This document shows positions 34,524 to 44,794 of a stretch of 64,000 bases of DNA, piece by piece. This DNA is from Lachnospiraceae bacterium (GTDB taxonomy: Bacteria > Bacillota > Clostridia > Lachnospirales > Lachnospiraceae). The notes below the pieces were generated by a model. The model worked only from the letters and a program-made list of their open reading frames with translations. It ran no database searches and had not been told where the DNA came from. Numbering within the stretch: the first letter of the stretch is position 1; each line of letters starts with the position of its first letter. Both the position numbers and the translations under genes were made by a program. The stretch lies in the NCBI GenBank assembly GCA_017936885.1, contig JAGBEO010000003.1, positions 1-64,000 of the forward strand, in the 5' to 3' direction.

Positions 34524-35168
34524 ATGGGCGATATTAAACTAAGCATTTCGATAAAAGAGGAAAACAATATACTATTTAAGCGTTGCATTCGTAAATTGCT
34601 GGATTCAACATTTATTGTGGGTGATAAGGATGAGAAGCTATATTCTTTTGTCTCACGGGAATCCAACAGACAAGACATTTCTGATTATCTTCGTATGATT
34701 GGTTTTGATGTACTTGTTGATACGAATGTGAAAATCGCGATGCTTAAGCCCCATGAAGCAGAAGAGGAAGCAGTAGGATTAAAACGTGCAAATGTGGTTT
34801 CGTTCACAGGCGAACAATACCATCTGCTTCTTGTGTTGTGGGAAGTTTATCTTGAGAATTTGGGCTATAATGATGAGAATGTTGTAATGCGAGGAGATCT
34901 GATTGATAAAATTAAGGCCTATGAAGTTGGTGTGGACAAGCCCGGCTTGTCTGCTGCAATGAAACTATTTAAGAAATATAATTTGATTGATTATGACGTA
35001 AAAGATGAATCGGAAGACGCAATTATTACCTTATATCCGTCATTGCAGTTTGGATGGGATATTGCGCAATTCAAAACTGTAACAGCAGAATATATGAAGA
35101 ACAGCGCGGTCATGGATGACGCAGACACAATGGATTCAGCGAGTGTTGAAGAGGAGGAGGCGGAATGA
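34524..35168 (+). CDS. jetB: Wadjet anti-plasmid system subunit JetB
   Basis: JetB is the small winged-helix (MukE/MksE-like, KITE-type) subunit that binds the JetA kleisin. The 214-residue protein has two candidate winged-helix segments (around 10-75 and 90-175) and a strongly acidic tail (MDDADTMDSASVEEEEAE). Its ATG directly follows the jetA stop and its end overlaps jetC by four bases (ATGA), so the subunits are translationally coupled and likely made in fixed ratio. Assignment is by position, size and fold impression. Confidence 0.82.
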   Translation: MGDIKLSISIKEENNILFKRCIRKLLDSTFIVGDKDEKLYSFVSRESNRQDISDYLRMIGFDVLVDTNVKIAMLKPHEAEEEAVGLKRANVVSFTGEQYHLLLVLWEVYLENLGYNDENVVMRGDLIDKIKAYEVGVDKPGLSAAMKLFKKYNLIDYDVKDESEDAIITLYPSLQFGWDIAQFKTVTAEYMKNSAVMDDADTMDSASVEEEEAE

Positions 35169-38100
35169 TTAAACTGAAACACATTCGGTTAGTCAATTGG
35201 TATGGATTTAATCAGATTACTGTTCCTATTGGTCTCTTTACGTTAATCGCCGGTAAGAATGGAAATGGTAAGTCGGTATTACTTGATGCGATTAAATATG
35301 CATTGTATGGAGATACCGTATTTAATAAGTCAACTGAAAATAAAGGAAGCAGAACTGTGTCGTCATATACGAGAGGATTACTTGATGCAACAGCTGGTAC
35401 ATTTATGAGGCCGGCTGATAAGATGCCGAATGTGTATACACACATTGTTCTTGAGATGGAAGAAGTGGAACTTGCGAGAAAGTTTATTCTGGGTACCGCT
35501 ATTGATACCGATTCTGGCAATGGGTTTAAAACGCAGAGATATGTTATTGAAAATAAGACATTAAGTGATGTGAATCATACGTATGAGCAAGAAGGTTTGA
35601 TATTTTCTTACAGTACATCTGAACTGCAAAAATTTTACGGTCTTAAAATGATGGATGTAAAGGAAGGTCTTGATAAGTTTATGCAAAGGACAGGATTGCG
35701 TCTTAATGAACAGCAGTTAGCTGCATTCAGACGCAAACTTAGAAGCATTATGTCGTATGATCCAAATGCAAAGATAGATCAGTTTATTCGAGAGAGCGTA
35801 TTAGAAGAAAAGAAAGTTGACTTTTCTAAGCTTGTCGCTGCAAAGAATAATATTGATACATTGAATTCTAATTTTGCAATCATTGATGCCGAAATTAAAG
35901 AATTAGAGGGTATCATTGCACTGTTTGATGAACTCACACGTGCAAAAAATATAATTCTGGCAGATGATGTGAAAATTGCATATAAGCGATTTCTAAGATG
36001 TCAAAAGATATTGGAAGAAGCTTCTCGCAATATGGAAATTGCGACAAGGCAGATTGAAGAAGATGAGAAAAAACTCGAAACAATATCTATTCGCGAGAAA
36101 GAGATAAGAACAGCTTATAATTCCGCTAAGGATAACCGGGATTCTATGGATTGTGCCAAAGCAATTGTAGAAGCGGAGGAAACTTTGCAAAAAGCGCAAG
36201 CAGAAAAAGACCGTTTGAAGAAAGAGAAAGAAGAACTCTGCGATTTCCAATCTAAAGTAAGTGAATTGATTGCGTGGTTTGATGAAGAGCAGCACAAAGT
36301 AGAGGAGCAGTGTGTTTTATCGTCTTTAACATTAGATAGTGTTGCTAAAGTACAAAAGGAGAGTAGTGTTGTAGCGTTTTTAGCGCAAATCAAAGAATAT
36401 AGAGATGAAATTTTAGGAAATGTAACAAGAATTGGTGACTCGTTTAAGGCAAACCAGGAGGAACAAGCCAAGTGTCAACAGACTATTGACGATTGCAATG
36501 CGAAGAAAACTACTTTTTCAGAGATACCGGATTATGTGGCTTTGAAAAATGAAATTAATCGGGAATTTGAAAAGCAAGGTATACAATCAGAAGCAAGGTT
36601 TGCTTGCGAATATGTTTTGGGGCTTAAAGATGAAGCTTGGCGTGATGTAATTGAAGGGTATTTGGGTGGACGAAGATATACGATTCTTGTGGAGCCAGAA
36701 TACTATGATATCGCAGATGACGTATTGAATGCATCTAAATATAAGTATGCACATTTGTTCAATACAAAATTATTAATGAGAAAAAAAATCTCTTTGGAAG
36801 ACGATTCGGTAGTTCATTTTATTGAAGTAAAAAACTTGGTTGCGAAACAGTATTTTGATTATCAGTTGGGAAGGTTTCATGCAACTACAATAGAAAAGGT
36901 GAGAAATTTTGAAAATGCTATGTCCAAAGAGGGCAGAGTGGCTGTAGCTATGGATAGTTATTTTATTCGTTTTGATAGGATTAGATTTTATTGTTTAGGA
37001 CAGGAAACAATCGAATTGAATCGAATTAAGGCAGTTAAAAAGCTGGAGATATTAAAGAAGGCATATATCGAATTTCAGGAGCAGCTTATTACGGAAAAAT
37101 CTAAGATGTCATATCTTGATATGGAAATGCAGTTTTTTGGCGGATATAATTATGATGCATGTAAGGAATACGACGAAGCATTACTGGATTGTTCCAAAAA
37201 GGAACAAGAACTTAATGCATTGAGAGAAGCCCAAAAAAATAATATGGAATACATGGAGCTCGCTCAAAGAGTAGGAGAACTTGCACAAGAGCTTGAGCTT
37301 ATAGAAGATGAGCGAAAAGATGTTTATAATGATAAGTCAGATATGCAGACGCTGTATAATACGAATTATGGTGAGCATATAAAAGTCAGTGGGGAAATTG
37401 TGAATATACAAGAAAATCTTGGAAATTTACAGTTTGCAAATAATGTTGTCTATGAAAAAGCAATTGAGGATTATGATAAGTTTGTTGCTAATGGTAAGAC
37501 TGGTCAAGGTGGAACTTTAGTAGACAGAAGGCGCGCAGAAAATAGATTAAAGGAAGCTGGGGAAAATTTAAGAGGTGGACAGGCTGCTTATAACGCATCC
37601 AGAACAGGTAATAATCAGCTGCCAATGACAGACAGTTCTATAGCTGTTTATCAAGCAAGAAAAAATCGAATTTGGATGGACGACAGGCAGGAGATTCAAG
37701 CTAAGTTAAAGGAACAGACAAAGCGTTATGAAGAAATTTTCAAAAATGAATTTGTGCTTACGGTCTTGAAATCCTGTGAGACTGCAAGGGATGATTTGAA
37801 ACTGATTAATGCAGAATTAGCACGGCTGAAATTCAAAGCCAAATATGAGTTCGATGTTAAGTATGTGAAGGATGGTTCTGATTACGAAAAGATATTAGAG
37901 TATGCAAAGTATTTAAAAGAACGCGAAGAACTTGGAACGGTATCCGGACAAATGATATTAGATTCTATGACAGCATATTCTGATGATAAAGGTAAAGAAC
38001 TGGAAAAGGATATCGAGAAGATTATCAATCGCATTGTGGAGAGTAAAGATAAAGATCAGATTGAACATTATGCGGATTATCGCAATTATATGACATATGA

Positions 38101-38461
38101 GATTCTTCTGACAAATGATGTTCTTACTAAAGCAAAGTTGTCAAAACAATCTGGCTATAATTCCGGTGCAGAGGTTCAAATACCATATATGCTTATTTTG
38201 CTTTCAGCACTGCTTATGATTTATAATGCTAAAAGTAATTCTACGAGATTGGTTTTTATTGATGAACCATTTGCGAAAATGGATCCGACCAATGTAAAAA
38301 TTATGCTGGGCTTCATGAAGGAACAGAATTTGCAAATGATTTTCTGTGCACCGGATAAAACAGAACTTATTGGAAATGAGAGTGAGGTTATATTACCGGT
38401 ACTCCGAACACAACCTGATCTTATGGAGATAGGAATCATAGAGATGCATAAAGGGGTGTAG
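35165..38461 (+). CDS. jetC: Wadjet anti-plasmid system SMC ATPase JetC
   Basis: JetC is the SMC-like motor that extrudes plasmid DNA loops so that JetD can cut small circles. In 1,098 residues it has an N-terminal Walker A (GKNGNGKS, 30-37), two long coiled-coil arms around a hinge-like middle (about 440-620, including the GYLGGRRYTILVEPEYYDIADDV region), and a C-terminal head with Walker B LVFIDEPFAKMD. The ABC signature loop reads NSGAEVQIPY instead of the classic LSGGQ, as is common for MukB-like and Wadjet SMCs. The ATG overlaps the jetB stop. Confidence 0.93.
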   Translation: MIKLKHIRLVNWYGFNQITVPIGLFTLIAGKNGNGKSVLLDAIKYALYGDTVFNKSTENKGSRTVSSYTRGLLDATAGTFMRPADKMPNVYTHIVLEMEEVELARKFILGTAIDTDSGNGFKTQRYVIENKTLSDVNHTYEQEGLIFSYSTSELQKFYGLKMMDVKEGLDKFMQRTGLRLNEQQLAAFRRKLRSIMSYDPNAKIDQFIRESVLEEKKVDFSKLVAAKNNIDTLNSNFAIIDAEIKELEGIIALFDELTRAKNIILADDVKIAYKRFLRCQKILEEASRNMEIATRQIEEDEKKLETISIREKEIRTAYNSAKDNRDSMDCAKAIVEAEETLQKAQAEKDRLKKEKEELCDFQSKVSELIAWFDEEQHKVEEQCVLSSLTLDSVAKVQKESSVVAFLAQIKEYRDEILGNVTRIGDSFKANQEEQAKCQQTIDDCNAKKTTFSEIPDYVALKNEINREFEKQGIQSEARFACEYVLGLKDEAWRDVIEGYLGGRRYTILVEPEYYDIADDVLNASKYKYAHLFNTKLLMRKKISLEDDSVVHFIEVKNLVAKQYFDYQLGRFHATTIEKVRNFENAMSKEGRVAVAMDSYFIRFDRIRFYCLGQETIELNRIKAVKKLEILKKAYIEFQEQLITEKSKMSYLDMEMQFFGGYNYDACKEYDEALLDCSKKEQELNALREAQKNNMEYMELAQRVGELAQELELIEDERKDVYNDKSDMQTLYNTNYGEHIKVSGEIVNIQENLGNLQFANNVVYEKAIEDYDKFVANGKTGQGGTLVDRRRAENRLKEAGENLRGGQAAYNASRTGNNQLPMTDSSIAVYQARKNRIWMDDRQEIQAKLKEQTKRYEEIFKNEFVLTVLKSCETARDDLKLINAELARLKFKAKYEFDVKYVKDGSDYEKILEYAKYLKEREELGTVSGQMILDSMTAYSDDKGKELEKDIEKIINRIVESKDKDQIEHYADYRNYMTYEILLTNDVLTKAKLSKQSGYNSGAEVQIPYMLILLSALLMIYNAKSNSTRLVFIDEPFAKMDPTNVKIMLGFMKEQNLQMIFCAPDKTELIGNESEVILPVLRTQPDLMEIGIIEMHKGV

Positions 38462-38464
38462 CTT

Positions 38465-39679
38465 TTGGAATACGAAGAGAAAATATTGACATATTTAGTG
38501 GAAAATTATCGCGAGAGTAAAAAGGACTTCGGGGATAATAAGATTAACAGAAGAACTCAAGTAAAACCTGAAAAGTTATATAAAAAGTATAATGCAAATG
38601 ATGGTGATTTTGAAGAGATTACAAAATTTAATCATGCCGTGGAATATTTATCTGAATTAGGTTTTATCAGTAGTAAAAAGGAAACTTTTGGAACACAAAT
38701 TCAATGTATTTATTTGGCAGATCAGAGAATACAGGAAATTGAACGATATTTAGGGGAGACATACGGTTATGTATCAAAGGATATGCAGATTGAAAAACTG
38801 CAGAGTTTAGTTAATAAATATCAAAATGCTTCACCTATATGTGAAAAAGAATGTACCAAACTGCAAGAATATATTGAAAAACGGAAAGTCCCAAAGAATA
38901 TTGATGAATTGGATGACACACTAAGGGCAGTTGCTTTTATCGAGAAGAACCAGAAAGATTTATATATCCGGGAAGTATCAATGAAAGTATACGGTGATTC
39001 AAAATATTTTGAAGATACAACTTTGCAGTCGGTTTGCAATATGCTTCGTAAACATGCAAATAGGATTTTTAAAGATGATGAAATGTTAGATGAAATCCTA
39101 TTAGGCTATCATATAGCAAAAGAACCACAAAAGCTTTGTATCAAGGGTAAGGCGATAATCAACATTTCCGGAAAAGAAGTAGATATTAGTGGATTTTCAG
39201 GAGGTGTGGAGTTTTTGGCCTCTGATTTGGCTAATATTCAATCGATTAAGCTTATGGTTCCGGAGTTTATGACGATAGAAAATAGAAATTCATACCTTAG
39301 GTATTATAAAGATGGAGTGGTTACGTTTTATCTTGGAGGCTATGCAAATAGGTATCAGCGCAACTTCATAAAAATGGTGTATGCGTCTAATGACTATGTC
39401 CGTTATTTGCATTTTGGAGATATTGATGCGGGAGGATTTTGGATTCATCATAATCTGTGCGAAGTAACGGGAGTAAACTTTGAATTATTTAGTATGTCAA
39501 CGAATGAATTAAAAAATAGTAAGTACGATTCTTGTTTGCATAGACTTACCGATCATGATAGAACAAGACTTCAGGAATTGAAAACGATGGGAATGTATAC
39601 TGATGTAGTTCAATATATGCTGAATTATAATGTAAAGCTTGAACAGGAGATAATTAGCTTGGAATTGATGAATCATTGA
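38465..39679 (+). CDS. jetD: Wadjet anti-plasmid system nuclease JetD
   Basis: JetD is the topoisomerase VI-like nuclease that cleaves plasmid DNA held by the SMC complex. The N-terminal half (1-220) is an arm and winged-helix region. The C-terminal Toprim domain (about 260-400) shows its metal ligands: Glu272 in MTIENRNSYL and the Asp pair (319, 321) in LHFGDIDAGGFWIHHNL. The DUF2220-type signature is intact, so the operon looks functional. It starts at TTG 38465, three bases after the jetC stop, behind AAAGGGG. Confidence 0.93.
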   Translation: MEYEEKILTYLVENYRESKKDFGDNKINRRTQVKPEKLYKKYNANDGDFEEITKFNHAVEYLSELGFISSKKETFGTQIQCIYLADQRIQEIERYLGETYGYVSKDMQIEKLQSLVNKYQNASPICEKECTKLQEYIEKRKVPKNIDELDDTLRAVAFIEKNQKDLYIREVSMKVYGDSKYFEDTTLQSVCNMLRKHANRIFKDDEMLDEILLGYHIAKEPQKLCIKGKAIINISGKEVDISGFSGGVEFLASDLANIQSIKLMVPEFMTIENRNSYLRYYKDGVVTFYLGGYANRYQRNFIKMVYASNDYVRYLHFGDIDAGGFWIHHNLCEVTGVNFELFSMSTNELKNSKYDSCLHRLTDHDRTRLQELKTMGMYTDVVQYMLNYNVKLEQEIISLELMNH

Positions 39680-41128: not shown

Positions 41129-41315
41129 ATAACATGATGAAAGAAATAGAACATCAGAGGATGATTATCACTATATATATCTGAGTTGTTCTAAGTTTTA
41201 TATTGAAGCATATCGAGAGATGTGGGAAGATAAAGATAGTTGCTCGGCAGATTTTTCTCGACAGGAGTAGAGGATAAAAGCTTTAAGAAAGTTTGTGTTG
41301 ATTATAGGAGAGGCA

Positions 41316-42170
41316 ATGGGGAAGATAGTTAAAGACACAATTCATGCAAATGGAATTGATATTGGAATTTATACGCAGGACTTTGAAAATGAATTTATTT
41401 CATTGACAGACATAGCTCGGTACAAAAGTGACGATCCGACAGCTGTTATACAGAATTGGATGAGAAATCGTGATGTTATAGAATTTTTGGGATTATGGGA
41501 AAGAATGCATAATCCAGATTTTAAACCCCTCGAATTCGAGGGGTTTAAAAAGCAGGCAGGAGCAAATGCATTTACAATGTCGCCAAAGAAGTGGATAGAA
41601 GCCACAGACGCAATTGGTATTGTTTCAAAAGCGGGACGCTATGGCGGAACATATGCCCATAGTGATATTGCTATGTCTTTTGCAACTTGGGTTTCTCCCG
41701 AATTTCAGTTATATATTATGAAAGATTATAGGCGACTAAAAACAGATGAGAATAGCCGATTATCTTTGAATTGGAATTTGAACAGAGAGATCTCTAAGTT
41801 AAATTACAGGATACATACAGATGCAATTAAAGAAAATTTGATACCACCAGAATTAACGCCTGCACAGGTAGCTTATACATATGCCAATGAAGCAGATATG
41901 TTGAATGTTGTTTTGTTTGGAAAAACAGCGAAACAGTGGAAAGATGAAAATCCTGTGGAAAAGGGTAATATGCGGGATGCAGCAACATTAAACCAGTTAT
42001 TAGTACTTGCCAATTTGGAAAGCTATAATGCTGTTTTGATTAATCAGGAAAAGAATCAAAAAGAACGGATGGAATTGCTTCGGCAGTTGGCAGTACAGCA
42101 GTTACAGACATTGGAAATGGTAAGTTTAAATAATTTGCCCAAAATAGGAGTCAATCCACAGAAGAATTGA
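41316..42170 (+). CDS. KilA-N domain protein
   Basis: The KilA-N DNA-binding domain occupies about residues 5-130 (SLTDIARYKSDDPTAVIQNWMRNRDVIEFLGLWE, then QAGANAFTMSPKKWIEATDAIGIVSKAGRYGGTYAHSDIAMSFATWVSPEFQLYIMKDY). A helical C-terminal part with a repeated-Gln end follows. The domain comes from phage and poxvirus proteins, and stand-alone copies are frequent in Firmicutes accessory regions. TAGGAGAGG precedes ATG 41316, preferred over 41295. A perfect 32-base palindrome lies in the frame without breaking it. No phage genes adjoin it. Confidence 0.9.
   Translation: MGKIVKDTIHANGIDIGIYTQDFENEFISLTDIARYKSDDPTAVIQNWMRNRDVIEFLGLWERMHNPDFKPLEFEGFKKQAGANAFTMSPKKWIEATDAIGIVSKAGRYGGTYAHSDIAMSFATWVSPEFQLYIMKDYRRLKTDENSRLSLNWNLNREISKLNYRIHTDAIKENLIPPELTPAQVAYTYANEADMLNVVLFGKTAKQWKDENPVEKGNMRDAATLNQLLVLANLESYNAVLINQEKNQKERMELLRQLAVQQLQTLEMVSLNNLPKIGVNPQKN
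41519..41550. repeat. Perfect 32-base palindrome inside the KilA-N gene
   Basis: The sequence reads identically on both strands from 41519 to 41550, centred on GAATTC at 41532-41537. Each 16-base arm includes AAACCCCTCGAA. In frame it encodes FKPLEFEGFK, a stretch also expected in KilA-N relatives, so the palindrome has been fitted into normal coding sequence. As RNA it can form a stem of about 14 bp. Confidence 0.97.
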
Positions 42171-42409
42171 AATGTTTGAATATATTCTTGAAAAAGTATA
42201 CAACATGAAAAGGAACGATAGGAATTATTGAAGACGAAAGAGATAAGATTTAAAGAATTAGAGAAAATAGCGCAAAAACAACCAGCAGCATTTTTATGTG
42301 GGAACGGATTTCTACCACAAGTAGAATGACAACTTCATTTTTCTGTGCTAAAGTACGATATAGTAAAGAGAAAAGCGGTGGATAGTCCATCGGGAAAGGA
42401 AATAAGATC
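42171..42409. other. Spacer after the KilA-N gene
   Basis: No credible gene was seen in this AT-rich stretch. It has a short GGTGGAT/ATCGG-type imperfect repeat near 42376-42393. With the small ORF that follows, the KilA-N stop and the tRNA-like gene are separated by 466 bases. Confidence 0.35.
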
Positions 42410-42541
42410 ATGTTTAGAAATAATTTTGTAAACAATTGTATAAGTGAACGATATGTATCCGCCCTGTCCAAAGAGAAAAACGAACAGAGTTTTATTATCG
42501 TACGCTCATATAAAGTAAGCCGAATGCATAAACGAACATGA
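42410..42541 (+). CDS. Possible small ORF, 43 aa, upstream of the tRNA-rtcB unit
   Basis: A frame of 43 codons begins MFRNNFVNNCISERYVSALS and ends at 42541. AAAGGA lies about 10 bases before the ATG, an acceptable ribosome site. The peptide is basic and polar and matches nothing I know. A strong terminator begins 49 bases after its stop, and the tRNA-like gene follows. It may be a real small gene, a leader peptide, or a gene remnant. Confidence 0.3.
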   Translation: MFRNNFVNNCISERYVSALSKEKNEQSFIIVRSYKVSRMHKRT

Positions 42542-42577: not shown

Positions 42578-42606
42578 TGGACTTTTACGAACCGCTTATC
42601 TTATAT
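42578..42606 (+). promoter_or_regulatory. Candidate promoter overlapping the terminator before the tRNA-like gene
   Basis: TGGACT (42578-42583) and TTATAT (42601-42606) are 17 bases apart and would place the transcript start near 42613, some 25 bases before the tRNA. The -10 lies in the terminator's loop. There is no room for a promoter between the T-run and the tRNA. Weak matches, so only a candidate. Confidence 0.35.
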
Positions 42607-42623
42607 GGGATAGGCGGTTTTTT
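42590..42623 (+). terminator. Intrinsic terminator just upstream of the tRNA-like gene
   Basis: An 11-bp stem (42590-42600 with 42609-42619, one G-U pair) with an 8-base loop ends in a run of six T residues (42618-42623). It is a textbook rho-independent terminator. Only 13 bases separate the T-run from the tRNA-like gene, so read-through or an overlapping promoter must supply tRNA transcription. Confidence 0.85.
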
Positions 42624-42636
42624 CATGCAAAGTTTT

Positions 42637-42708
42637 GCTCCATTAACTCAATGGCAGAGTAACCGGCCTTTAACCGGTAGGTTGTGGGTTCAAATCCCAT
42701 GTGGAGCA
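42637..42708 (+). tRNA. tRNA-Lys(TTT)-like gene with C33
   Basis: This is a full 72-base cloverleaf. Acceptor GCTCCAT pairs with GTGGAGC, the D-stem is ACTC/GAGT with a 7-base loop containing GG, the anticodon stem ACCGG/CCGGT is perfect, and the T-loop is TTCAAAT. The anticodon loop is CCTTTAA, so bases 34-36 are TTT (Lys) but base 33 is C where nearly all elongator tRNAs have U. CCA is not encoded. It lies 35 bases before rtcB. It could be a tRNA-like decoy, a ligase substrate or a decaying tRNA-Lys. Confidence 0.85.
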
Positions 42709-42743
42709 TTCCACATCAAAAATAATAAAGGAAGGAAAAAGAT

Positions 42744-43946
42744 ATGATTGAAATTAAGGGAAAAGTAAACACCGCGCTCTGCTATGCAAAGATAGTAGAG
42801 AGCGAGGCAATAGAGCAGATCAGAAGAATGTGCGATTATGATTTCACGCAAGGCAGCAAGATTCGTATTATGCCGGATGTACATGCCGGTAAAGGCTGTA
42901 CCATTGGAACAACCATGACAGTCACTGATAAGGCAGTACCGAATATTGTCGGCGTTGATATTGGCTGTGGAATGTACACCGTCAATTTAGGCAAAGCAGA
43001 TATCGATTTCGCAAGATTAGATGAGGCGGCTCATTATATACCCTCCGGGATGCATGTATGGGAAGGGCGGATGGAGCGCTTTGATCTGACGGAATTGAAA
43101 TGCTATAGAAGTCTTAAAAATACCAAATATCTGGAGAGAAGTCTCGGAACGCTGGGCGGCGGAAACCATTTTATTGAGGTAGATCAGGCAGAGGATGGAA
43201 CGAAATATCTTGTAATCCATTCCGGCAGCCGTAACCTTGGAAAACAGGTGGCAGATATCTATCAGCGACTGGCAATCGAGCTGCATTCCGGTAAAGAGGA
43301 ATATTTTAAGAAAAGGGATGCACTGATTGCGGAGTATAAGGCAGCAGGCCGCAGGAATGGGATCCAGGCTGCTTTAAAGGAACTTGTGTGGGAGCATAAG
43401 GATTGCATGATTCCGGACGATTTATGTTATCTGTACGGAACTTATTTTGAGGATTATTTACATGATGTGGAAATTTGCCAGTGTTTTGCAAAGCGCAACC
43501 GTGAAAAAATCGCGGAGGTAATCTTTGAGCGCACCGGTATGACAGCGGGCGAGGCATTTCATACCATTCATAATTATATTGATACGGATGAAATGATTTT
43601 AAGAAAGGGTGCGATTGCAGCTCATAAAGGAGAAAAAGTGCTGATTCCAATTAATATGAGGGATGGAAGCGTACTTGCTGTCGGAAAAGGAAACCCGGAC
43701 TGGAACTATTCAGCGCCGCATGGTGCGGGCAGATTGATGTCACGTTCCAAGGCGAAGGAGATTTTAAGTCTGGAGGAGTACGAGAATGTAATGGCAGGAG
43801 TTTACACGACTTCTGTAAATGAAGCGACATTAGACGAAGCACCAATGGCATACAAGTCATTGGAGGACATCATTGATGTGATTCGTGAGTCCGTGGACGT
43901 GATTGATGTTATGAAACCAATATATAATTTTAAAGCTTCTGAGTAG
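42744..43946 (+). CDS. rtcB: RNA ligase RtcB
   Basis: RtcB joins RNA 2',3'-cyclic phosphate or 3'-phosphate ends to 5'-OH ends using GTP and Mn2+, repairing or splicing broken tRNAs and other RNAs. Visible motifs are PDVHAGKGCTIG, the metal-binding Cys75 in GVDIGCGM, LGTLGGGNHFIE, and the guanylylated His326 in SAPHGAGRLMSR. At 400 aa it belongs to the shorter bacterial group. AAGGAAGG precedes the ATG. There is no rtcA or archease beside it. The immediate upstream gene is a tRNA-like RNA, which suggests co-transcription and a shared job. Confidence 0.97.
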   Translation: MIEIKGKVNTALCYAKIVESEAIEQIRRMCDYDFTQGSKIRIMPDVHAGKGCTIGTTMTVTDKAVPNIVGVDIGCGMYTVNLGKADIDFARLDEAAHYIPSGMHVWEGRMERFDLTELKCYRSLKNTKYLERSLGTLGGGNHFIEVDQAEDGTKYLVIHSGSRNLGKQVADIYQRLAIELHSGKEEYFKKRDALIAEYKAAGRRNGIQAALKELVWEHKDCMIPDDLCYLYGTYFEDYLHDVEICQCFAKRNREKIAEVIFERTGMTAGEAFHTIHNYIDTDEMILRKGAIAAHKGEKVLIPINMRDGSVLAVGKGNPDWNYSAPHGAGRLMSRSKAKEILSLEEYENVMAGVYTTSVNEATLDEAPMAYKSLEDIIDVIRESVDVIDVMKPIYNFKASE

Positions 43947-44237: not shown

Positions 44238-44492
44238 ATGTTTACAATGCCGGTCATAGATATGACGGGAACAGGAAAGAGAATTGCGGATCTGCGTCAG
44301 AATGCAGGACTGTCTGTTAAGGATTTGCAGGATATCTTTGGATTTGCGACGCCGAATGCAATATACAAGTGGCAGCACGGAACGGCAATGCCAACATTAG
44401 ATAACCTGGTTATTCTGGCAGCAGTCTTCGGTGTGGCAATAGATAATATTATCGTAACCGATGTAAATGTGAATGTGCAGATTAGCGCATGA
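44238..44492 (+). CDS. Small XRE-family HTH regulator, 84 aa
   Basis: The 84-residue protein is little more than one helix-turn-helix: GTGKRIADLRQNAGLSVKDLQDIFGFATPNAIYKWQHGTAMPTLDNLVILAAVFG. It ends with an unusual Val/Asn-rich strand (IIVTDVNVNVQISA). GGAAGGAGG gives a very strong ribosome site. It lies between rtcB and the Glu-Glu-Ser tRNA cluster and about 290 bases after rtcB; it could regulate the rtcB unit, but nothing in the sequence proves that. Confidence 0.88.
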   Translation: MFTMPVIDMTGTGKRIADLRQNAGLSVKDLQDIFGFATPNAIYKWQHGTAMPTLDNLVILAAVFGVAIDNIIVTDVNVNVQISA

Positions 44493-44536: not shown

Positions 44537-44609
44537 GGTCCCCTAGTCTAAAGGTCAGGACGTCGCCCTTTCAAGGCGAAGATGCTGGGTTCAAGTCCCG
44601 TGGGGATCA
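44537..44609 (+). tRNA. tRNA-Glu (TTC)
   Basis: This 73-base cloverleaf has anticodon loop CTTTCAA (TTC), T-loop TTCAAGT, acceptor GGTCCCC pairing with GGGGATC and discriminator A. CCA is not encoded. Confidence 0.95.
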
Positions 44610-44613
44610 GTAG

Positions 44614-44686
44614 GGCTCCTTAGTCTAAAGGCAAGGACGCCAGCCTCTCAAGCTGGAGATGCCGGGTTCGAGTCCCGCAGGAGCTA
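44614..44686 (+). tRNA. tRNA-Glu (CTC)
   Basis: This 73-base cloverleaf starts 5 bases after the preceding tRNA. The anticodon stem CCAGC/GCTGG encloses CTCTCAA (CTC), and the T-loop is TTCGAGT. The first acceptor pair is G-U. It adds a second glutamate isoacceptor beside the TTC tRNA. Confidence 0.93.
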
Positions 44687-44706: not shown

Positions 44707-44794
44707 GTTTGCGTGTCCGAGATGGTTTATGGTGCCACTCTGCTAAGGTGGTGTGCATGTAATTGCACCGAAGGTTCGAATCCTTCCGCAAACG
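44707..44794 (+). tRNA. tRNA-Ser (GCT)
   Basis: The 88-base type II tRNA has acceptor GTTTGCG with CGCAAAC, discriminator G, anticodon loop CTGCTAA (GCT) and a long variable arm (GTGCATGTAATTGCAC). CCA is not encoded. Confidence 0.95.

Follow-up and report, generated by a model that had tools for sequence, protein, structure and literature searches.

Attenuators of the trp and his type combine a leader open reading frame (ORF) carrying the relevant codons with an antiterminator and a terminator that exclude each other. In the RtcR-controlled rtcBA operons of Proteobacteria, RtcB is damage-inducible through a sigma-54 activator that detects RNA ends. Toxins, colicins and antiphage systems commonly act by cleaving tRNAs, and to our knowledge little is known of how cells outside the Proteobacteria sense such cleavage. 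Here we discuss an rtcB operon of Lachnospiraceae bacterium (GenBank assembly GCA_017936885.1, contig JAGBEO010000003.1, positions 1 to 64,000 of the forward strand; we call this whole stretch of 64,000 nucleotides (nt) the window), in which a leader ORF, a terminator and a tRNA-Lys gene with C at position 33 (C33) precede the gene for the RNA ligase RtcB. The operon shares with the trp and his attenuators the leader ORF, relevant codons and mutually exclusive antiterminator and terminator, but would sense several tRNAs and control spare tRNAs and a ligase rather than amino-acid synthesis. With the RtcR-controlled operons it would share a damage-inducible RtcB, inducibility being what we propose here, with a leader attenuator and a small XRE protein in place of the sigma-54 activator.

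As the nearest precedent for an RtcB-like gene behind a leader peptide we would name, by analogy, armZ (PA5471) of P. aeruginosa, which has the short leader ORF PA5471.1 in front and for which attenuation on ribosome stalling has been proposed; the sections of that review available to us describe no tRNA genes there, and give its role as relief of MexZ repression of an efflux pump (PMC12057347). Apart from this review we found no report in the open-licence literature of an attenuator or a tRNA array at rtcB. Phage tRNA arrays are alike in having anticodon-loop changes in extra tRNAs of cleaved isotypes, although position 33, a leader peptide and RtcB are not named for them in the available part of that paper (PMC10264068), and the unit discussed here is also chromosomal and regulated. 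Pnkp and Rnl1 of phage T4 repair anticodon-cut tRNA-Lys, as RtcB would here, and PrrC cuts that tRNA 3' to U33, the base changed here, according to the portion of the source at hand (PMC2610378); T4 differs in its ligase chemistry and in having no C33 tRNA.

We think it likely that the operon senses tRNA depletion and responds to stalled ribosomes by producing spare tRNAs and a ligase, some of the spares probably escaping nucleases by C33. Such units recur in gut Lachnospiraceae, and several of their spare tRNAs have this base change beside the anticodon, which is elsewhere very rare. The order would be operator box, leader peptide, attenuator, one or more spare tRNAs, rtcB, XRE regulator and more spare tRNAs. 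In normal growth ribosomes would traverse the leader and cover the antiterminator strand, so that the terminator forms and transcription stops. If tRNAs that read the leader, which tends to use codons read by the operon's own tRNAs, are cut or scarce, we infer that the ribosome stalls upstream of the antiterminator strand, which can then pair, and that RNA polymerase continues into the spare tRNAs and rtcB. RtcB would then reseal tRNA halves with 2',3'-cyclic phosphate and 5'-OH ends, and C33 in some spares would weaken recognition or cutting by anticodon nucleases while leaving the tRNA usable.

A predicted attenuator in front of rtcB

The leader ORF (42410-42541, forward strand, as are all features below) encodes 43 amino acids, MFRNNFVNNCISERYVSALSKEKNEQSFIIVRSYKVSRMHKRT, behind a ribosome-binding site, GGGAAAGG, at 42392-42399. 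With a hidden Markov model (HMM) iterated from 10 hand-picked seeds, homologues were found in 80 of 133 rtcB upstream stretches, among which near-duplicates partly remain; the same model found none in any of the 15 stretches before distant rtcB genes (L168-L176 and L178-L183; the loci are given by our own handles where needed). Start codon and ribosome-binding site are conserved, the codons have a core around TAT-CTN-(A/T)AT-AGT-GAA-CGT, and the proportion of synonymous differences (pS) exceeds that of nonsynonymous ones (pN) in 50 of the 55 pairs listed, which overlap. The leader looks translated. It is highly improbable that it is untranslated and that the attenuator answers a protein or ligand: RNA pairing does impose part of the conservation and purifying selection on the peptide is mild, but the retained start codon and ribosome-binding site, the excess of pS and the match of codons to tRNAs described below all speak for translation.

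The terminator, AACCGCTTATCTT-ATAT-GGGATAGGCGGTT-TTTT at 42590..42623, is a hairpin (42590-42619) followed by T's to 42623. A terminator lies no more than 140 nt past the leader stop in 79 of the 80 leaders; that of L001 was missed by the search, and a similar hairpin is nevertheless visible there. Its 5' arm and loop (42594-42607) are also the 3' strand of a predicted antiterminator, of which the 5' strand, CATATAAAGTAAGC at 42507..42520, lies within the leader ORF (codons for SYKVS). In the family, the leader segment CATATAAGATAAGC is complementary to the terminator 5' arm and loop GCTTATCTTGTATG.

When a single MAFFT alignment covering the antiterminator was folded with RNAalifold, no structure emerged (energy 0), and therefore swap tests were used, with segments placed by peptide alignment and native partners compared with swapped ones. 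The native leader-terminator duplex was at -13.9 kcal/mol against -11.6 for swapped partners (z -7.7, n=57), a difference reached in 0 of 20000 permutations, a count that overstates independence since the loci are related. Native pairs were in the better half in 48 of the 57 loci and in the best tenth in 17. When longer segments were used, in an earlier version of the test, z was -6.3, against -1.1 for a control segment taken further upstream (n=61 for both). With dinucleotide shuffles z was above 2 in 32 of the 57 loci, the window standing at 2.3. Compensated variants of the antiterminator are clear in L067, L042, L061, L142, L018 and L019, and in predicted folds of the stalled leader the antiterminator was present in several of the 15 loci tried. 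Judged by its sequence, then, the terminator is one half of an attenuator: a short ORF with a ribosome-binding site stands before an intrinsic terminator and, at the level of the family, a covarying antiterminator excludes that terminator.

Upstream lies a promoter/operator box, TCTACCACAAGTAGAATGAC (42311..42330; consensus TATACCACAAGTATAATGAC), an inverted repeat overlapping a -10-like TAGAAT, which is probably the start of the leader transcript and a probable site of an XRE protein. At a loose threshold of up to 6 mismatches in 20, 92 of 136 upstream stretches have it, roughly 100 nt 5' of the leader ATG; the common form is TATAC-N5-GTATA, and the window carries the symmetric variant TCTAC-N5-GTAGA. 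The exact box occurs at 11 sites in 10 of the 299 family genomes, and a wide regulon was ruled out as 8 of the 11 are at rtcB. A genome with no RtcB match (G004) has exact boxes at a microbial-type PARG gene (PF10021; L266) and upstream of an alpha/beta hydrolase gene (L274), and from these two sites a wider regulon of some kind is possible. In L022, L029, L031 and L035 only 75-80 nt separate rtcB from a box that has 3 to 5 mismatches, and no leader or terminator was found.

Linked tRNA genes and the codons of the leader

The rtcB gene of the window (42744..43946) encodes 400 amino acids (PF01139, 188.3 bits) and its motifs DVHAGKG, GGGNHF, HSGSRNLG and HGAGR look intact. It is followed by a gene for a small XRE-type helix-turn-helix (HTH) protein of 84 amino acids (44238..44492; PF01381), a conserved partner of rtcB and the tRNA module. 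In 66 of 81 loci this gene lies on the same strand as rtcB and at most 900 nt behind it. tRNA genes stand between terminator and rtcB, and again 3' of rtcB and the HTH gene. In the window the tRNA-Lys is at the first position and three tRNAs with U33, all called by ARAGORN and RF00005, are at the second: spare tRNA-Glu(UUC) (44537..44609), spare tRNA-Glu(CUC) (44614..44686) and tRNA-Ser(GCU) (44707..44794). The last is the only Ser(GCU) seen in an assembly that is 93.6% complete, and is perhaps not a spare.

We count as linked any tRNA gene on the same strand and no more than 700 nt before or 2200 nt after rtcB. Exact duplicates (L007, L034, L130, L134 and L140) and stretches under 150 nt were dropped before counting, near-duplicates L132, L135 and L136 were dropped from the interval count, and L044 was left out of some tests. 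The 79 loci have 109 linked tRNAs (Glu 27, Ser 19, Tyr 17, Leu 12, Lys 11, His 5, Trp 4, others 14), none of them for Ala, Gly, Pro, Thr or Val. Most look like ordinary decoders, of many isotypes. A tRNA or remnant is present in 27 of 78 intervals between terminator and rtcB, a figure that includes L001 and L074, added by hand after remnants were seen there and both scored. A plain pairing of tRNA and rtcB is ruled out, as most of these intervals have no tRNA.

Several loci have unusual arrangements. The tRNA called in the L141 interval is an Ile(UAU) with A33 and an odd loop, CATATTG, and in L044 rtcB and the HTH gene are followed by 18 consecutive tRNA genes. The broken tRNAs of L052 and L074 have an insert rich in hairpins in the T arm.

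For the comparison of codons with tRNAs we took the leader before the antiterminator as its sensing part (59 leaders, 1674 codons), with 351 ORFs as background. The sensing part is rich in Ser (1.82-fold), Phe, Tyr, Asn, Leu and Arg. AGT, the codon of Ser(GCU), is enriched 5.1-fold and makes up 0.49 of leader Ser codons against 0.17 in the background, while TCT (0.10) and TCA (0.15) are not raised. Over 61 codons, a codon tends to be the more enriched the more linked tRNAs read it (rho 0.52, p 2e-5), and this correlation persists after AT content is removed (rho 0.45, p 3e-4). Leaders also match their own array better than swapped arrays, 0.307 against 0.254 in 17 bacterial loci (z 5.2, 0 of 20000 permutations), and 0.321 against 0.254 when five loci without rtcB are included (22 loci); these five alone gave 376 of 20000, and kinship among the loci makes all these p values optimistic. 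L302, near-identical to L303, was omitted from this test. By the codon correlation and the own-array match, the leader carries control codons for what the operon supplies.

A leader could alternatively sense general ribosome stress, such as antibiotics or slow elongation, rather than the loss of particular tRNAs. This has been proposed for PA5471.1 before armZ, and the review, in the sections available to us, does describe a leader peptide before an RtcB-like gene that answers ribosome-targeting drugs (PMC12057347). We regard it as unlikely for the operon discussed here, where leader codons track the tRNAs of their own operon, AGT is singled out among the Ser codons, and tRNA arrays within the same unit point to tRNA supply.

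C33 in the tRNA-Lys and in other linked tRNAs

The initial annotation had described a complete tRNA-Lys cloverleaf with a TTT anticodon and C33, 13 nt after a terminator and 35 nt before rtcB, and all of this agrees with our data. The gene (42637-42708) reads GCTCCAT TA ACTC AATGGCA GAGT A ACCGG CCTTTAA CCGGT AGGTT GTGGG TTCAAAT CCCAT GTGGAGC A; it begins 13 nt past the T-run that ends at 42623 and ends 35 nt before the rtcB start at 42744. ARAGORN calls tRNA-Lys(ttt) and RF00005 matches at 62.3 bits (E 4.1e-11); an Rfam scan of the window gave tRNA matches only. It has the cloverleaf, D- and T-loop signatures and UUU anticodon (42669-42671) of an elongator tRNA-Lys(UUU), and departs from one in its anticodon loop, C32 C33 U34 U35 U36 A37 A38, where C33 at 42668 takes the place of U33; the base call comes from a single assembly and may be a sequencing error. 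The source genome (3.57 Mb) has a second Lys(UUU) sequence, on contigs C29 and C12, as well as a Lys(CUU), and the rtcB-linked Lys(UUU) is therefore extra. With just 64% identity to the housekeeping Lys(UUU), it is no recent copy.

That C33 is worth notice, as the annotation had held, is borne out by the wider set, in which it is not a one-off: 13 of 107 unique rtcB-linked tRNAs have it against 0 of 139 unique unlinked ones (Fisher 1.3e-5), the unlinked set being drawn from the window's genome, the genomes of L052 ([Clostridium] aminophilum) and L066, and unlinked tRNAs near the loci. The L052 and L066 genomes were chosen for holding a linked C33 tRNA, and in each this is the only C33 tRNA called (1 of 49). 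The 13 are in 10 loci and comprise Lys, Glu (2), His, Tyr and Ser (8: GCU 5, UGA 2, CGA 1); in L066 ARAGORN called an Arg(ccg) where it seems to have misread a Ser(GCU) with C33, and this was not counted.

C33 could be drift, the redundant copies being only weakly selected and U33C being tolerated before the gene is lost; the operon could still be real in that case. In favour of this, seven intervals between terminator and rtcB contain broken tRNAs (L001, L030, L052, L062, L074, L129 and L139; half tRNAs, and in L052 and L074 the insert noted above), and the anticodon loop is enlarged in a Lys-like tRNA of L070, 39-120 nt before rtcB, which ARAGORN takes for Leu(taa). In each of 3 genomes examined the C33 copy is accompanied by another isoacceptor, and the nearest orthologue of the window's tRNA-Lys that we found, in L019, has T33, so that C33 is ruled out as a conserved hallmark of this tRNA. 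Drift should however affect all invariant sites, and general decay is not the whole story as only position 33 stands out clearly: T33 falls from 139 of 139 unlinked to 94 of 107 linked tRNAs, while linked and unlinked hardly differ in TTCRA (103/107 and 132/139), GG (107/107 and 138/139) and anticodon-stem pairing (96/107 and 129/139). A few linked tRNAs also miss N32 (105/107 have it) and R37 (104/107). All 13 changes are to C, they affect at least six isoacceptor types, and the T-stems of the window and L019 tRNAs differ by one compensated pair, which we take as a sign of selection on structure. Drift as the explanation of C33 thus seems doubtful to us.

A tRNA with C33 can still decode, as some eukaryotic initiators do. 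For phage tRNAs, changes in the anticodon loop are predicted to allow evasion of nucleases, as stated in the part of the paper at hand (PMC10264068), and PrrC, as noted above, cuts next to position 33. We infer that C33 in some spares probably helps escape from anticodon nucleases; as far as sequence goes, what is seen is the excess of C33 in linked tRNAs.

The annotation had offered three roles for the tRNA-like RNA: a decoy, a sensor whose cleavage controls read-through into rtcB, or a dedicated RtcB substrate. C33 is indeed unusual for an elongator and the position beside rtcB suggestive, but we consider all three very improbable. Neither sequence, isotype nor presence is conserved, many linked arrays are plain decoders, the leader ORF is already in place as a probable sensor, and the module exists without rtcB. 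A decoy or a dedicated substrate would lead one to expect a conserved C33 RNA, and neither is supported, given U33 in L019, the 27 of 78 occupied intervals and the two same-genus loci mentioned below. Of the sensor proposal the read-through control survives, with the leader ORF and antiterminator, not the tRNA, looking like the sensor. That the tRNA belongs with rtcB is supported, and control of both by read-through of the terminator is very probable. Absence of the tRNA from close relatives, named in the annotation as telling against its proposal, holds in part for the tRNA-Lys, two same-genus loci with a close rtcB having no tRNA between terminator and rtcB, and does not hold for the operon.

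The module without rtcB, and what it may mean

The HTH gene adjoins tRNAs without rtcB in L268, L280, L283, L286, L302 and L303. L268 (G173:C70) is a bacterial contig with a leader-attenuator-tRNA-HTH-tRNA unit: exact box, leader of the same kind, terminator, tRNA-Lys, HTH gene and tRNA-Tyr, rtcB being elsewhere in the genome. The leader-attenuator-XRE-tRNA module is also present, with no rtcB, in gut records classed as phage. One of them, MT835533.1, has box, leader, terminator and HTH gene, then tRNAs Phe-Lys-Glu-Asp, of which the Lys tRNA has U33 and is 92% identical to that of the window over 90% of its length. MT835946.1 has the leader, a quite different terminator with which the leader nevertheless pairs (z 5.2), the HTH gene, and tRNAs Lys-Phe-Ser-Ser-His-Cys, the Cys with C33. 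Two viral contigs, one of 253 kb and one of 55 kb, have in common the leader MTTFRSLYLHSELSESLYSSLAFQFACADNGKI, a terminator different again that pairs with it (z 4.1) and the array Leu-Leu-Phe, HTH, Glu-His-Ser(C33)-Tyr-Ser; 16 of the 25 sensing codons of this leader are read by their own tRNAs. Pairing is kept with unrelated terminators in viral-class records (L283, z 5.2; L302 and L303, z 4.1) and is weaker in L268 (z 2.5) and L280 (z 1.6).

C33 is present in 8 of 78 tRNAs of seven phage-class records, two of the arrays being near-identical. L288, a 10-kb viral contig, has 13 tRNAs, among which Ser(GCU), Pro and Asn have C33. RtcB is absent from all seven phage-class records, and none matched the phage hallmark families PF03237, PF04860, PF04466 or PF05065; the evidence that they are phages is therefore their class in the source databases and, in the largest (253 kb), an endolysin match. 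The scans of viral contigs gave 5 loci with an RtcB query, 1 with a single HTH protein and 19 with an HTH alignment; L281, L282 and L289-L291, which have rtcB and the HTH gene, may be bacterial.

Some observations weigh against a tRNA-sensing operon with C33 spares. The window's own antiterminator is weak (an A.C mismatch, -9.7 kcal/mol, and the z of 2.3 given above), and its terminator finds a better partner in 47 of 61 leaders taken from other loci. Terminators are alike, so that most swaps still pair and the native partner is the single best in 1 of 61, and the kinship of the loci has been mentioned. In L286 pairing is not significant (z 0.5). At the level of amino acids the correlation with linked tRNAs is weaker (rho 0.52, p 0.019), and we judged such enrichment weak as sole evidence: Glu, the commonest linked isotype, is at 1.00-fold in leaders and Lys at 0.89-fold, and Phe is at 1.62-fold though rarely linked. 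The codon match of the window itself is modest (0.23). C33 is found in a minority of linked tRNAs and is not conserved, as the T33 of L019 shows.

With regard to the neighbourhood, a gene for a KilA-N domain protein (41295-42170) is directly upstream of the operon, and Wadjet-type defence genes, for a JetC-like ATPase and a JetD-like protein (PF09983), are at 35165-39679, about 3 kb upstream.

More tentatively, and with somewhat less confidence than an even chance, we suggest that the module is a mobile tRNA-depletion response shared with phages, with leaders written in the codons of their own spares, such that losing just these tRNAs would open the attenuator and yield replacements, a ligase where rtcB has joined, and C33 as a repeated adaptive change that makes poor nuclease substrates. 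If this is true, tRNA arrays of phages would have been taken over by bacteria, or the other way round, and would serve as permanent protection from tRNA-cutting toxins and immune systems. Because such a leader takes its reading from the tRNA supply itself, a separate damage sensor would be unnecessary, and the specificity of an operon could be read from its sequence through the agreement of leader codons with the operon's own tRNAs. C33 would then be a testable rule for separating spare, nuclease-evading tRNAs from housekeeping ones, and would bear on why phages carry tRNAs.
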